In this document: positions 3,731-17,217 of the stretch, piece after piece
Numbering within the stretch: position 1 is the first letter of the stretch
Layout: each line of letters starts with the position of its first letter
Assembly: GCA_937863045.1 (NCBI GenBank)
Contig: CALMBU010000023.1
Span: 1-39,839 of the forward strand
DNA length: 39,839 nt
Source: an uncultured Polynucleobacter sp.
GTDB taxonomy: Bacteria > Pseudomonadota > Gammaproteobacteria > Burkholderiales > Burkholderiaceae
Direction of reading: 5' to 3'
Translations under genes and position numbers: made by a program
Notes under the pieces: generated by a model
What the model was told of the DNA's origin: nothing
Seen by the model: only the letters and a program-made list of their open reading frames with translations
Database searches by the model: none

Positions 3731-5603
3731 GTCGAATGAGACCCCTGAATCCCTCTTAAATGATGTTAAAAAATTACCTGGTTTGCCAGGTGTGTATCGC
3801 TTTTTCGATGAAGCAGGACAAATCTTATACGTTGGTAAGGCCAAAGACTTAAAAAAACGCGTTAATAGTTATTTTCAGCGCAATTTATCATCACCGCGCA
3901 TCGAGCGCATGGTCACTCGCATTCGTTCTTTAGAGACCACGGTCACTCGCACAGAAACCGAGGCTTTGATTCTAGAAAACAACCTCATCAAAGAACTATC
4001 GCCGCCATTCAACATCTTATTCAGAGATGATAAGTCTTACCCATATGTGATGCTCTCTGGTCATCAGTATCCACGTTTGGCCTACTACCGTGGCAGGGTG
4101 GATAAACGACATCAATACTACGGACCATTTCCGAATTCATGGGCAGTCAGAAACAGCATTCAAATTCTGCAAAAAGTGTTTCAGATAAGAACCTGTGAAG
4201 ACACCATTTTTAAAAATAGAAGCAGGCCTTGTTTATTGCATCAGATTCATCGTTGCAGTGCGCCTTGCGTGGGTAGAATCACCGAACAAAACTATGCACA
4301 AGATATCCATAAGGCAGTTCAGTTCTTAGAAGGTGATCACGCCAGCGTTATGGCTGAGTTCGAGCAGGCGATGCAGTCCTATAGTGACAACATGCAGTTT
4401 GAACAAGCTGCCATGATGCGTGACCGCATCGCGGATTTATCACAAGTGCTACAACAACAATCCATGGACACGGTTGCTGATGGTGAGGGTGATGTTGATA
4501 TCTTGGCCATTGCGATGAAGGGTGGATTGGCTTGTATTAATTTGGCCATGGTGCGCGGCGGCCGTCATCTGGGTGATCGAGCTTACTTCCCCAAGATGGG
4601 CCGCTTCAAAGAAGATGCCATGCCCAACAGCGATGAGGTGATGCAAGCATTCATCACCCAACACTATTTGAGTGATGATGCTGAATCTCTCAAGCTCATC
4701 CCGAAAGTCATGGTCATTCAAGACTTCAGTGACTCTCCAGAAAATGATGAGTTACAAGAACTCTTAAATGCCAAAGCCAATAAAAAGGTGCAAATCCTCA
4801 GGCAACCTCAAGGTCAACGCAAGCATTGGTTGATCATGGCGCAAAACAATGCCGAGCTGGCTCTGACCAAGCGCCTCACAGAGGCGGGCGGGCAAGAAGC
4901 CAGAACGCGATCATTGATCGAGGTACTCAATCTTGATCTTGAAAATGCAGAAGATCTGCGCATTGAATGCTTTGATATCAGTCACACCTCGGGTGAAGCC
5001 ACGCAAGCCAGTTGTGTGGTTTATCAAAAGCACGACATGCAAAGTGGTGAGTACCGCCGCTTCAATATCAACGACATCATTCCTGGTGATGACTACGCTG
5101 CCATGCGTCAAGTGCTTCACAGGCGTTATGCCAACTTCCAAGAAATCCCACCTGAGAAACAACCTCACATTGTTTTGGTCGATGGCGGTAAAGGCCAGGT
5201 CAGTATGGCCAAGGAAGTCTTTGATGAATTAGGTTTGGATATCCATATGATTGTGGGCATTGCCAAAGGCGAGGGCAGAAAAGTTGGTTTAGAGACCCTC
5301 ATATTCGCTGATCAGCGTGAGCCCATGACCCTTGGTTTAGAAAGTCCAGCACTCCTGCTCACAGCCCAAATCAGGGATGAGGCTCATCGCTTTGCCATCA
5401 CTGGCATGAGAGCCAAGAGGCAGAAAGCCAGAAACGTCTCGCGCCTCGAGGAAATCGAAGGCATCGGAGCCAAGAGGCGTCAGAAACTCTTGGCTCGATT
5501 TGGTGGTTTAAAGGGTGTCACCAGCGCCACCATTGAAGAGCTGCAGCAAGTGGAGGGTATTTCAAAAGCTTTGGCTGAGATCATTTATAAGCAATTGCAT
5601 TAA
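3729..5603 (+). CDS. uvrC: Excinuclease ABC subunit C
   Basis: UvrC makes both incisions flanking a DNA lesion in nucleotide excision repair after UvrA/UvrB damage recognition. At 624 residues it is full length. The order of domains is clear: N-terminal GIY-YIG nuclease ('[12 protein letters not shown]', '[11 protein letters not shown]'), a UVR motif for UvrB contact near 218-238 ('[14 protein letters not shown]'), an RNase H-like endonuclease domain ('[11 protein letters not shown]', 'LVDGGKGQ') and a C-terminal pair of helix-hairpin-helix motifs ('[13 protein letters not shown]', '[12 protein letters not shown]'). The in-frame stop at 3708-3710 limits the start to the ATG at 3729, which has only a weak upstream ribosome-binding site lying inside earP. 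pgsA follows after 66 bases; the uvrC-pgsA link is common in proteobacteria. Confidence 0.97.
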
Positions 5604-5669
5604 AAAATAACACCCATAAACAAGTCTTTAGAACTTCTATTATTTAGCAATACCCTTTATCCTTGCGGC

Positions 5670-6248
5670 ATGCCCTTTAATTTACCAATCTTCCTCACTT
5701 GGTTACGCGTTGCGACCATCCCTTTGGTGGTTGGTATTTTTTACTTGCCTGCATCTTTATTGGATATCGATGAGAAAAATCTTTGGGCCACGATTTTCTT
5801 CGTTGGTGCAGCCATCACAGATTGGTTAGATGGTTACTTGGCTCGTAAGTGGGGGCAGGTATCTGCTTTTGGTGCATTCTTAGACCCAGTCGCTGACAAA
5901 CTCATGGTGGCAGCTGCATTATTGGTGTTACTGAACTTTGATCGTGTCGAGGTTTGGGTTGCTTTGGTCATCATTGGTCGTGAGATCACAATCTCAGCTC
6001 TCAGAGAGTGGATGGCGCAAATTGGCGCATCAAAGAGTGTGGCTGTTCATTTTGTGGGTAAGCTCAAAACAGCCGCTCAACTGATCGCGATTCCATTTTT
6101 GCTTTACAACGACAGATTGTTCAATCTTTTCCACACCAAAACGATTGGTAAACCCCTCATTTGGATTGCGGCAGCACTCACAGTTTGGTCGATGTTCTAT
6201 TACCTCCAAAAAGCCTGGCCGATGATCAAGGCCAAAGCGAACCTCTGA
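5670..6248 (+). CDS. pgsA: CDP-diacylglycerol-glycerol-3-phosphate 3-phosphatidyltransferase
   Basis: PgsA makes phosphatidylglycerol phosphate from CDP-diacylglycerol and glycerol 3-phosphate in the inner membrane, the committed step to phosphatidylglycerol and cardiolipin. The 192-residue protein carries the complete CDP-alcohol phosphotransferase motif: D51, D54-G55, A58-R59, G68, D72 and D76, exactly spaced as D-x2-DG-x2-AR-x8-G-x3-D-x3-D. Several hydrophobic segments surround it, consistent with six membrane helices. The start 'MPFNLPIFLTWLRV' is typical of the family. The gene is followed by tRNA-Gly and tRNA-Cys, the same order as the E. coli pgsA-glyW-cysT cluster. Confidence 0.95.
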   Translation: MPFNLPIFLTWLRVATIPLVVGIFYLPASLLDIDEKNLWATIFFVGAAITDWLDGYLARKWGQVSAFGAFLDPVADKLMVAAALLVLLNFDRVEVWVALVIIGREITISALREWMAQIGASKSVAVHFVGKLKTAAQLIAIPFLLYNDRLFNLFHTKTIGKPLIWIAAALTVWSMFYYLQKAWPMIKAKANL

Positions 6249-6332
6249 CCCTTGAGTCATAAAAGTCAGTAAAAACAAAGACTTTCCCCACAGTAATACC
6301 TATTCGCCAAGACGGCTAAAAAGCCCATTTAT

Positions 6333-6360
6333 TTGACACAAGCTGAAATTATGGTAAAGT
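6333..6360 (+). promoter_or_regulatory. Probable sigma-70 promoter of tRNA-Gly
   Basis: A consensus -35 TTGACA (6333-6338) and a -10-like TAAAGT (6355-6360) are separated by 16 bases, followed by a GC-rich discriminator and then the tRNA 18 bases later. The arrangement suits a strong stable-RNA promoter. Confidence 0.6.
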
Positions 6361-6377
6361 GACGGTCTTGTTGTTAT

Positions 6378-6453
6378 GCGGGATTAGCTCAGTTGGTAGA
6401 GCGATACCTTGCCAAGGTATAGGTCGAGAGTTCGAGCCTCTTATCCCGCTCCA
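6378..6453 (+). tRNA. tRNA-Gly (anticodon GCC)
   Basis: A 76-base cloverleaf: acceptor GCGGGAT pairs with ATCCCGC, D-arm AGCTC-AGTTGGTA-GAGC, anticodon loop TTGCCAA giving GCC, T-arm GAGAGTTCGAGCCTC, discriminator T and an encoded CCA end. It lies after pgsA and before tRNA-Cys. Confidence 0.98.
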
Positions 6454-6460
6454 AATTACG

Positions 6461-6488
6461 AGGGAAGCTTAACCAGCTTCCCTTTTTA
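6461..6488 (+). terminator. Rho-independent terminator between tRNA-Gly and tRNA-Cys
   Basis: A 9-bp stem (AGGGAAGCT, 6461-6469; AGCTTCCCT, 6475-6483) with a TAACC loop is followed by TTTT. It lies 8 bases after the tRNA-Gly CCA, so tRNA-Cys probably depends on readthrough or its own promoter. Confidence 0.8.
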
Positions 6489-6506
6489 ATTAGCAGTTTC
6501 ATCCCC

Positions 6507-6580
6507 GGCGGGATGGCAGAGTGGTTATGCAGCGGCCTGCAAAGCCGTGTACCCCAGTTCGATTCTGGGTTCCGCCTCCA
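6507..6580 (+). tRNA. tRNA-Cys (anticodon GCA)
   Basis: A 74-base cloverleaf: acceptor GGCGGGA pairs with TTCCGCC (one G-U pair), anticodon loop CTGCAAA giving GCA, T-arm CCCAG-TTCGATT-CTGGG, discriminator T and an encoded CCA. An open frame that runs through it (from 6513) is not coding. Confidence 0.97.
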
Positions 6581-6677
6581 GTTATCTCAAATACACCCCT
6601 CAAAGCAGACTCAGGCTAAACTACGAATCCTAAAGATTTGCATTAGATCTATTCACTTACCATTTGATAGTACAAAA

Positions 6678-7061
6678 ATGAAACTAAAACAAATTAGCCA
6701 ATTACTCTTGATTGATTTGGTATTGCAGCTATTACCCATTGCTTACTTTGCTTATAGTTCACCATCATTTGCTGAAAATGTTCTTAGTGGCCCATTGATT
6801 CAGGCAGCTTTTTACTTATTTCTGATTTGGAAAATTTCTGGTGCAAGTAACCTGGCCAGATTTCTATTCTTGGCCTATGCGGCTGCTATCTTCTTGCCTT
6901 TGAGTGTGTTGTTCTTAATGCACAGCAGTAGTGTCGGCATGATGTTGCTTGTATTGATTCAAATAGCTATCAAAGCTTATTGCGTGTACCAATTATTTTT
7001 GACACCAACAAAGTTGGAATTCACCAAAGTTGAAGAGGAAAGTGAATTTCCTAAATTCTGA
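6678..7061 (+). CDS. Small integral membrane protein, 127 aa, unknown function
   Basis: I do not recognise a family. The open frame extends upstream into tRNA-Cys, so the ATG at 6678 ('MKLKQISQLLLIDLVLQLL') is chosen. From there the protein has about four hydrophobic segments (roughly residues 8-25, 40-55, 60-80 and 85-105) and ends in a charged tail rich in glutamate (KVEEESEFPKF). The N-terminus has positive residues before the first helix, as expected for an inner-membrane protein. No active-site motif is visible. It is convergent with the downstream oxidoreductase gene, which ends 8 bases away. Confidence 0.65.
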   Translation: MKLKQISQLLLIDLVLQLLPIAYFAYSSPSFAENVLSGPLIQAAFYLFLIWKISGASNLARFLFLAYAAAIFLPLSVLFLMHSSSVGMMLLVLIQIAIKAYCVYQLFLTPTKLEFTKVEEESEFPKF

Positions 7062-12699: not shown

Positions 12700-13185
12700 A
12701 TGACTCAATCGACCAATCAACTTCTTCATCAAACCAGCTTGAGCCAAGTGCCTCAAGGCTTGTCTGGTGATTTATCGGTCAATGAGACGCCACTCATCAT
12801 GCACCCATTATCGGCAGGATTTCCGAGTCCTGCGGCTGATTATGCGGCTGATGGTTTGGATCTGAATAGCTATCTGATACAGAATAAGCCAGCCACTTTC
12901 ATGTTTACTGTGAGAGGTGAATCAATGATTGTGGCTGGCATCCATCATGGCGATAAGGTGGTCGTTGATCGAGCCTTAAAGCCTAAACACAAAGACATTG
13001 TGGTGGCAGTAGTCAATGGCGAATACACGATCAAGCGCTTGTACAAATACAAAGGGCTGGTTGAATTACGCCCAGAAAACCCCGACTACCCCAACATCAC
13101 ATTCAGCGAAGGACATGAGTTACAAATCTGGGGTGTGGTGATTGGAGTGGTCAGACGTTATTCAAGTCATTCGTCTCGGGTCTGA
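12700..13185 (+). CDS. umuD: DNA polymerase V accessory protein UmuD
   Basis: UmuD is a LexA-like S24 peptidase that, with RecA filaments, cleaves itself to UmuD', which joins UmuC as polymerase V. The core is intact: cleavage site Ala39-Gly40 within [11 protein letters not shown], nucleophile Ser75 in 'VRGESM' and general base Lys112 in 'EYTIKRL'. The Ser-Lys spacing of 37 is the same as in E. coli UmuD (60 and 97). The N-terminal arm before the cleavage site is 39 residues here versus 24 in E. coli, and no Shine-Dalgarno precedes the ATG at 12700, so the start could instead be a downstream GTG/TTG (residues 14-21). umuC follows after 2 bases. Confidence 0.95.
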
Positions 13186-13187
13186 TC

Positions 13188-14498
13188 ATGAGCTCCTCCA
13201 ATCAAAACTCCACCCATGCACCGCTGTTTGCTTTGGTGGATGTGAATAATTTTTATGTGTCTTGCGAAAGAGTCTTTGCCCCGCAGTTAGAAAAAACACC
13301 GATGGTGGTGCTGTCGAACAATGATGGCTGCGCGGTGGCGCGCAGCGCTGAAGTCAAAGCCTTGGGTGTCAAAATGGGGACTCCTTGGTTTCAGATGAAA
13401 GACTTGGCCAAGCAGCATGGCATCTTGGCGTGTTCATCTAATTACACCCTTTACCACGACATGAGTCAGCGCGTGGTCGAGATACTGCGACAGTTCACGC
13501 CCAAGCTAGAGGTCTACAGCGTTGACGAAAGCTTTCTACAAATCGAATCTGTTTTAAATGCACATGAGTCTCCCACGCATTTGGGTTCTGAGATCAAGCA
13601 GCGCATCAAGCAGTGGACGGGGCTGCCTGTTTGTGTGGGCATTGCACCCAGCAAAACTTTGGCCAAGTTTGCCAATCACTTGGCCAAAAAGAATCCATCA
13701 TTCAATGGCGTTTGTGATTTAAGCAATATGCCCAAACAAGATCTTTATCAATGGATGAGCGAAGTATCGGCTGCTGAAGTCTGGGGTATTGGTAGAAAAA
13801 TTGCCAAGCGTTTAGAAGGCATGGGCATGCACACAGTGCTTGATCTGGTGCAGGTATCTCCGCAAATGATGCGTTTGCAATTTGGGGTGGTGATCGAAAG
13901 ACTTTGTTACGAATTGCGTGGACTATCTTGTTTGGCTCTGGAAGAGGTGGCGCCACCCAAGCAACAAATCATTGCTTCTAGAAGTTTTGGCAAATTAGTA
14001 CTCAGCTTGGAAGAGCTGGCTGAATCAGTGGCCACACACACAGCCAGAGCCGCTGAAAAATTAAGAGAGCAGACATCATTGACCAGTTCAATCAGTGTGT
14101 TCATTCAAACCAATGTGTTCATGAGAAACGAAGCTCAGTACAGTCAAAGTATTCAAATACCTTTGGCGCACCCGACCGATGACACCTTGGTGTTGACTGA
14201 AATGGCCATCAAGGGGCTGAAAGAAATTTATCAAAAAGGCTTCAGGTACAAAAAAGCTGGGGTGATGCTGGGTTTGATGACTGATAAACCGCTGGTGCAA
14301 TCTTCATTATTTGAAGATCATTTGGCCAAAGGCAAGTCTGTGCGCCTCATGAAAACCCTCGATTCAATCAACACACGTTATGGAGCTCAAGCCTTGCGAG
14401 TCGCTGCGACAGGGACTGACCAAGCCTGGAAAATGAAGTCGGAGAATGTTTCACCTAAGTACACCAGTCATTGGGATCAATTACCTTTGGTGTCTTGA
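13188..14498 (+). CDS. umuC: Y-family translesion DNA polymerase V catalytic subunit UmuC
   Basis: UmuC is the catalytic subunit of polymerase V, which copies damaged DNA with low fidelity. The 436 residues start '[18 protein letters not shown]' with catalytic Asp18, and the palm motif 'YSVDESF' gives Asp113-Glu114. '[18 protein letters not shown]' is the UmuC-type finger sequence. The helix-hairpin-helix region '[18 protein letters not shown]' and the little-finger domain follow, ending in the UmuC-specific C-terminal domain. The gene begins 2 bases after the umuD stop, so the two are co-translated from the SOS-controlled promoter. A YkgJ-type gene follows 11 bases after its stop. Confidence 0.97.
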
Positions 14499-16046: not shown

Positions 16047-16256
16047 ATGACTCCCGAATCCTTGGAAAAATTGATCAGTATGAAAATGCCTTTTGGTAAG
16101 CATGCCGGACAATTGCTTTGTGATTTACCCGCCAATTATTTGTCATGGTTTGCAAGAGAAGGATTCCCACGAGGAGAGATAGGGGAGTTATTGCACTTGA
16201 TGCACGAGATTGATCACAATAACTTACGGCACCTGCTCACTCAATTAAAAAAGTAA
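16047..16256 (+). CDS. DUF3820 family protein, 69 aa
   Basis: The sequence 'MPFGKHAGQLLCDLPANYLSWFAREGFPRGE' (residues 14-44, shown by its parts 'MPFGKHAG' and 'LSWFAREGFPRGE') is the DUF3820 signature, a short family once named for a putative quorum-sensing-regulated virulence factor. Biochemical function is unknown; the fold is compact and lacks membrane helices. The length of 69 residues is normal. It is divergent from the LON-domain gene and 115 bases upstream of the small-gene cassette. Confidence 0.85.
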   Translation: MTPESLEKLISMKMPFGKHAGQLLCDLPANYLSWFAREGFPRGEIGELLHLMHEIDHNNLRHLLTQLKK

Positions 16257-16371
16257 GAATCTCTTCCATTGGTAAGAATTCTCTTTGAATAAATCAGCGA
16301 TTTCTGACGAATCATTTCCTCCAAATTTAGATTAACTGGATTCATCATGATTTCTTTAAGGAGAAAACACG

Positions 16372-16539
16372 ATGGAAATGATCATTAGGAACATTGCTAG
16401 AAAAGCATCGCCCAAGCGAAGTAAAAGAACCGCAACCAGAAGAAGCCCCGGTGTTTTATCTAAAAGCATCAAGCTGGCGAAAAGTGCGGGCTATGGCTTG
16501 GGGAAATTAGCCACTTTGGTTTTCATTGGCAGGCTATAA
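16372..16539 (+). CDS. Very basic small protein, 55 aa, unknown
   Basis: I do not recognise this protein. It has a strong ribosome-binding site (TAAGGAG, 8 bases before the ATG at 16372). The first 40 residues are rich in Lys/Arg ('RKASPKRSKRTATRRS' then 'SKSIKLAKSAG'), with no acidic residue except Glu2. The last 14 are hydrophobic ('GKLATLVFIGRL'). The pattern suits a nucleic-acid- or membrane-binding peptide. The next small gene starts 9 bases later with its own ribosome-binding site, so the two form a bicistronic unit. The gene is short enough to be missed by standard length cut-offs. Confidence 0.6.
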   Translation: MEMIIRNIARKASPKRSKRTATRRSPGVLSKSIKLAKSAGYGLGKLATLVFIGRL

Positions 16540-16548
16540 GGTGACGTC

Positions 16549-16767
16549 ATGAGCCAGGCGATGTGCGAGCTATTGGTTGATAAATTAATTAATTCTGATG
16601 AGTTAGGGGAAATCACAGAAACGATTCAGGTGGGCGTTGAGTCAGGGCAAGGTATTTGGCAACTATTGATGGATAACCCAATTGTCTTTGGGATGGTGAT
16701 GGGAGGTGGCGTTGCCACCTACATCAGGAAGTGGTTTTTCAAGCGCTACAGAAATGTCTCACGCTGA
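16549..16767 (+). CDS. Small probable membrane protein, 72 aa, unknown
   Basis: I do not recognise this protein. It follows the basic 55-aa gene by 9 bases, with AAGGTG 5-6 bases before the ATG. The N-terminal half is acidic ('DELGEITETIQ'), then comes a hydrophobic glycine-rich segment ('PIVFGMVMGGGVATYI', about 44-59) that could cross the membrane once, and a cationic tail ('RKWFFKRYRNVSR'). The charge pattern predicts the C-terminus in the cytoplasm. With its basic partner it might form a complex through opposite charges; this is inference only. It is convergent with the next gene, 18 bases away. Confidence 0.6.
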   Translation: MSQAMCELLVDKLINSDELGEITETIQVGVESGQGIWQLLMDNPIVFGMVMGGGVATYIRKWFFKRYRNVSR

Positions 16768-16785: not shown

Positions 16786-17217
16786 TCAGCGCTCCAAATA
16801 CACCTCTCCAGGTATGTAGCCCACAGTTGGACGCATGCAGACATGAATATCATAGCCAAACTGCGCAATGGCGTGAAGCAATCTAAAGGTATTGATCTTT
16901 TTGAGATCTCCTTTGTAGAGGGCCAGGGTATCTTTGATGGGGAATTGAATCTTTTCTGCCAACACTTTTGGATTGGTTAATTTATCAAGGGTGATTTTTC
17001 TATAAAGATCTTCGAACAATAAAGCCTTGAAGTCATCTTCCTTTTTGATCAGTTCAATCACGCGGATGTCAATGATCTTCACATTCTCTTTGGGTGTATC
17101 GCTCGGTTTGATGCTGGGCTCTTTAGTACTGCGTTTGCCATCATGATGACAGGTGAGGGTAAAAATATGAGACTGTGCTGATTCGGATGGGTTTTCATCC
17201 TGTAGATAAATAGTCAT
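16786..17217 (-). CDS. Possible HigA-like helix-turn-helix regulator, 143 aa
   Basis: The N-terminal half is polar and not recognised. The C-terminal part (about 80-130: 'LTNPKVLAEKIQFPIKD', 'KGDLKKINTFRLLHAIAQFG', 'YDIHVCMRP') follows the pattern of the HTH_37/HigA2-like fold, in which 'LA..L....V..l..G....f....L...l...GydV.i' is conserved. If so, it is a DNA-binding regulator. It is convergent with the two-gene small-protein cassette and transcribed away from the phosphatase gene. An inverted repeat GATTTGT-N17-ACAAATC (17285-17315) lies about 68 bases upstream of its ATG and could be an operator or promoter element. The assignment is from pattern only. Confidence 0.45.
   Translation of the reverse strand: MTIYLQDENPSESAQSHIFTLTCHHDGKRSTKEPSIKPSDTPKENVKIIDIRVIELIKKEDDFKALLFEDLYRKITLDKLTNPKVLAEKIQFPIKDTLALYKGDLKKINTFRLLHAIAQFGYDIHVCMRPTVGYIPGEVYLER

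Follow-up and report, generated by a model that had tools for sequence, protein, structure and literature searches.

A linked pair of small protein genes in Polynucleobacter and its possible role as a membrane tether

Comparison among relatives shows that two adjacent short frames in a Polynucleobacter genome, here named A and B, are real protein genes. The evidence for this comes from the comparison, in which the frames stay open and under selection, the layout alone being weak evidence. The pair adds two small protein families without a relative in the libraries searched, which together make up one conserved unit of clade-level reach. As to its role, the model tentatively favoured here, which is possible rather than probable, is that of an inner-membrane heterocomplex in which a cationic arm of A would bind a polyanion, in other words a small tether.

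The locus and the evidence for two genes

The window, that is, the whole stretch of 39,839 nucleotides that was analysed, corresponds to contig C23 in a draft genome of 1.45 Mb (95% complete) from this freshwater genus. On its forward strand the pair is flanked by an upstream QSregVF_b gene and a downstream convergent gene for a 143-residue protein:

16047..16256, + strand: QSregVF_b (PF12843) protein, upstream neighbour (Pfam E 9.6e-29)
16341..16351, + strand: conserved cis element TTCATCATGAT, just 5′ of the Shine-Dalgarno sequence of A
16358..16363, + strand: Shine-Dalgarno sequence of A, AAGGAG
16372..16539, + strand: gene A, 55 aa, cationic; AlphaFold helix 28-54 at low confidence
16538..16543, + strand: Shine-Dalgarno sequence of B, AAGGTG, which runs into the TAA stop of A
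16549..16767, + strand: gene B, 72 aa; low-confidence all-helical model
16786..17217, − strand: convergent 143-aa protein, distantly HTH_37-like, found in carriers of A-B only, not in all of them

A sequence-only reading of this DNA had placed two frames at 16372-16539 and 16549-16767, each with a Shine-Dalgarno sequence and with a 9-nt gap between them, and these coordinates are confirmed. Its view that such a layout is rare by chance does not hold, as 21% of 200 first-order Markov windows contain at least one such pair under a lenient rule (ORFs of 50-80 aa, a Shine-Dalgarno match of at least 4 bases, a gap of 0-30), and the actual window contains one, A-B itself. Broken frames in relatives had been set as the refutation; in none of the 14 carrier genomes is either frame interrupted. 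Over six close relatives (15 pairs) A has a pN/pS ratio of 0.249, and selection on B (0.052) is about as strong as on the known gene next to the pair, QSregVF_b (0.046). Variable sites at codon positions 1, 2 and 3 number 20, 13 and 33 in A and 8, 2 and 41 in B in the same relatives. With A directly upstream of B, in the same order, in 14 of 14 carriers, the paired conservation and purifying selection that had been proposed as a check are both borne out.

Strong relatives of B (E<1e-13), one per carrier genome, occur in 14 of the 186 genomes of the genus, a count that leaves out 8 genomes with weaker rows only (E 0.012-0.092); an apparent stop inside B of carrier G005, seen in one search row, is simply where this frame ends. 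Relatives of A at E<1e-10 were found in 13 of the 186, leaving out 11 genomes at E 0.002-0.084, and the fourteenth, in G102, was recognised by reading the sequence: it is 39 residues long, ends in YLATLVLVGRL and lies directly 5′ of B. The gap between the genes is 9 nt in six carriers, 8 in four, 5 in one and 2 in two, and in G102 they share a 4-nt ATGA overlap. In four Polynucleobacter loci, among them that of P. cosmopolitanus MWH-MoIso2, a carrier of the pair, B is 96-100% identical. The best match outside the genus in a family sample of 299 genomes (some of the same genus) was weak, at E 0.020, and two partial matches at E 0.006 in an order sample of 399 genomes (some again of the same genus), which sit within frames of 509 and 597 aa, were not counted; in both samples only part of the first-look candidates was scored in many genomes. 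As far as searched, A-B is thus restricted to part of the genus. In line with the sequence-only reading, by which neither protein fits a known family, no credible relative of A or B was found in Pfam, PHROGs, NCBIfam, PADLOC or PDB, and a narrow literature search returned no papers on the genes. The best PDB profile matches, lactate oxidase for B (E 0.026) and the actin-like ALP12 over 39 residues for A (E 0.011), were taken as chance.

The upstream gene is widespread, with QSregVF_b present in 169 of 186 genus genomes at E<=1e-5, and in the window it lies 5′ of the pair. Of the 13 other carrier loci, 12 share this arrangement and G102 does not. The gene is treated here as a positional marker rather than as a part of the A-B unit. 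At E<=1e-5 the convergent protein is confined to 10 of the 186 genomes, every one of them an A-B carrier; HTH_37 is matched by two of six members of its family (best E 0.0033), the copy in the window being without a match, and a T-C-H motif, FTLTCH in the window, is conserved in it. Farther out past this gene lie, among others, genes for a low-molecular-weight phosphatase and a MOSC protein. In one locus (L145 of G032, 5570-6900) a reverse-strand frame, MFS transporter-like by eye, replaces the convergent gene and the phosphatase. No tRNA or Rfam element was found within the A-B locus, and elsewhere in the window, at 12700-14498, there is a UmuD/UmuC-type pair (Peptidase_S24, then impB/mucB/samB).

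The neighbourhoods of the carriers are largely kept. On a tree of QSregVF_b (207 columns; 30 rows, 13 of them carriers, drawn from the best-matching loci of 169 genomes; G102 is without the gene) 2 changes suffice to explain the carrier state, where shuffling gives a mean of 10.0; the tree is weakly supported, with a carrier fork at 55/12 and four non-carriers inside it besides G078. The latter genome adjoins carriers G005 and G084, yet is without A-B: its locus L151 holds, at 5063-5152 between QSregVF_b and MOSC, neither A nor B, nor the convergent gene, nor the phosphatase. Since the carriers cluster on the tree and G078 lacks the pair, inheritance appears to be mainly vertical and is most simply explained by a single gain with one loss or more. 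The function of A-B is dispensable in G078, because the genes are missing there between the same neighbours.

The element TTCATCATGAT in front of A contains the palindrome ATCATGAT and, by eye, is exact in 9 of 14 carriers, has one mismatch in three and three mismatches in G084, and is not seen in G102. It is kept although distant carriers have diverged widely in the rest of the DNA upstream; among six relatives the divergence is 0.073 per site at positions -32..-1 of A versus 0.284 at -110..-32. Nine exact copies exist genome-wide and none of the reversed control. A role as a regulon motif was rejected, as most of the other 8 copies do not, by eye, precede a start codon. A promoter scan found 1 candidate versus 3.2 expected, that one on the other strand, and a terminator scan 1 versus 1.0.

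Protein architecture and a proposed membrane complex

The A protein consists of an N-terminal stub (residues 1-8), a variable basic linker (9-30) and a conserved C-terminal helix ending in KLATLVFIGRL. As had been read from the sequence, it is rich in Lys and Arg, with 14 such residues in 55 and a net charge of +13; the charge spans +6 to +17 over 14 sequences, and the length 39-83 aa over nine diverse ones. In the latter set, conservation is highest in the final residues before the stop, and L46, G53, R54 and L55 are invariant. Among the six relatives the pN/pS ratio is 0.025 for codons 1-8, 0.59 for 9-30, 0.12 for 31-55 and 0.060 for 41-55.

The B protein is built of an acidic helical N-part, an SGQGIW..LLMDNP hinge, a glycine-rich hydrophobic segment and a cationic tail. 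The acidic start, membrane-like segment and cationic tail described earlier are all recovered, with a charge of -7 through the D of DNP, one moderately hydrophobic segment (best 19-residue Kyte-Doolittle mean 1.27 in the window) and +6 beyond the D; across nine sequences the N-part carries -2 to -7 and the C-part +1 to +6. Residues C6, S32, G33, P44, G48, M49, G52, G53 and R60 are kept in the nine diverse sequences, and the pN/pS ratio in the six relatives is 0.023 for codons 1-34 and 0.047 for 35-66. AlphaFold models built from five close sequences each have low confidence, with pLDDT values of 57 and 65 for the two proteins; they predict that both are mostly helical and say no more. The usual hydropathy threshold for a membrane helix is 1.6. 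Membrane insertion would be marginal, because B at 1.27 and A, whose best 19-residue mean in the window is 1.05, both fall below it.

The membrane insertion, A-B contact, polyanion and physiological role that we infer would fit together as follows. The two proteins would be translationally coupled, and B would be held at the inner membrane by the glycine-rich hydrophobic helix that follows the DNP hinge. A would be drawn in by the acidic helical N-part of B and would pack against B with its conserved C-terminal helix, leaving the fast-evolving cationic arm of A outside the bilayer. This arm would bind a polyanion, be it the ribosome, a nucleic acid or acidic lipid, and the unit would thereby tether it to the membrane. 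Such a complex is favoured because of the linkage in 14 of 14 carriers, the selection in the segments that the model needs and the charge complementarity of A and B. In G102, K45 of A is replaced by Y together with a change of D42 in B to N, whereas the other 13 of 13 carriers combine K or R with D; this joint change goes in the direction that a salt bridge would predict, and it is a single event. The sequence-only reading had offered three guesses, of which a small membrane complex is in our judgement most likely, a DNA-compaction or anchor role is conceivable, and a toxin-like pair is disfavoured, A-B being syntenic in one clade, G078 being without it and no neighbour being kept as an antitoxin in all carriers.

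Alternative explanations

It is unlikely that A-B is a lineage-specific replacement of YqjD/YqjE/YqjK that acts in ribosome hibernation or envelope stress and whose B protein might be remotely YqjK-like. What speaks for it is that, among the 186 genomes of the genus, 121 of the 172 non-carriers and 0 of the 14 carriers have a match above the curated cut-off to DUF883, the domain of YqjD (Fisher p 1.5e-7, uncorrected for kinship; 6 of 127 matching genomes were dropped for lying under the cut-off, and one carrier, G143, has such a match at E 0.0099 inside a 1175-aa frame). However, 51 of 172 non-carriers are likewise without an above-cut-off match and the carriers cluster on the marker tree, which is why the pattern may reflect a single clade-level loss. 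The likeness of B to DUF883 itself is unsupported: PF05957 and PF19029 gave no match at E<=10 in nine B sequences, HMMER filters dropping most matches above 0.1, and a true Polynucleobacter DUF883 protein used as a positive control matches both. In hhalign, B reaches a probability of 1.8% and a score of 16.3, exceeded by 1 of 60 shuffles (16.5) and by the reversed profile (19.1), and A a probability of 1.2%, with a resemblance confined to 13 columns of the tail. The comparison of B with the YqjK profile, chosen after the likeness had been seen and hence a lead only, scored 21.1 over 21-22 columns, a value reached by 0 of 100 column shuffles and compared with 13.4-14.9 for the reversed profile, at an hhalign probability of 11%. 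The aligned stretch lies before and after DNP, the weak likeness being around the NP hinge. None of nine B sequences matches PF13997 (YqjK), which two Polynucleobacter YqjK proteins match at 9e-12 and 3.9e-11. No YqjD, YqjE or YqjK was found at E<=1 near A-B in the window and 24 loci covering the neighbourhoods of all 14 carriers, a search in which a control locus returned all three. A more specific reading, likewise unlikely, would make A-B a two-part ribosome (or nucleoid) tether of one Polynucleobacter clade that supersedes the YqjD system, with A as the cationic grip and B as the anchor; hibernation-type tethering would then have been re-invented from two new small proteins.

The pattern of conservation in A raises the question of whether it is chiefly a regulatory leader peptide, whose C-terminus would act within the exit tunnel of a ribosome that has reached the stop codon and would set the translation of B. 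Its conservation peaks at the last residues before the stop codon, while the preceding length and sequence vary, and the Shine-Dalgarno sequence of B overlaps this stop in the window. Against this, codons 1-8 of A are held in a way unexpected for a stalling peptide, and the conservation of this start suggests that A functions as a protein; the stop codons also vary between TAA and TGA, the genes are separated by up to 9 nt or overlap by 4 nt, and no common fold of the junction is seen by eye in six relatives, so that we consider a leader role rather unlikely; if A were a leader, it would be a new stalling sequence. A toxin-like pair or a toxin-antitoxin unit, perhaps under the control of the convergent HTH_37-like protein, would suit the small hydrophobic and cationic products and the presence of that neighbour in 10 of 14 carriers. 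It is made improbable by the persistence of A-B without this neighbour in the other 4 of 14, the largely kept neighbourhood, the single strong match per carrier, the lack of a PADLOC match for either protein and a pN/pS ratio of B near that of an ordinary neighbour; the variant in which A is the antitoxin to B is conceivable. Filamentous phage coat proteins have an acidic, hydrophobic and cationic charge pattern, which that of B recalls, and small virion or holin-like proteins left over from a phage or mobile element could be envisaged. This origin is highly improbable, given that B has no PHROGs family and A a best E of 0.1 there, that neither has a match in 50,697 phage records, 72,556 plasmids or viral contigs, and that the Pfam-named neighbours are chromosomal genes.

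Comparison with known systems

With leader peptides such as TnaC and ErmBL, A has in common that it is a short upstream frame with its conservation packed against the stop codon; unlike these, it carries a strong positive charge, and close relatives preserve its N-terminus too. YqjK (PF13997), the third gene of yqjDEK, shares with B a short stretch, the NP hinge and a hydrophobic segment, and differs from it in a longer charged N-terminal half and in its partner and locus. The operon PA3040-3042 is linked to envelope stress by the title of PMC11302039, whose text describes its first two genes as resembling yqjD and yqjE.

The YqjD group may be the closest functional analogues of A-B, taken as analogues rather than as relatives. 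YqjD, ElaB and YgaM (DUF883, PF05957/PF19029) are tail-anchored membrane proteins, and YqjD binds ribosomes. As in A-B, the proteins are small and have a C-terminal glycine-rich hydrophobic helix that comes after a P-containing turn and is followed by R/K. A membrane-tether role, reported for YqjD (PMC10502375), is here proposed for A-B. The sequence relationship is undetectable, and the proposed A-B complex differs from DUF883 proteins in that the cationic arm and the anchor would be split over two proteins. If the tether model is true, A-B would represent a further, independently built way of doing what has so far been tied to YqjD-type proteins.
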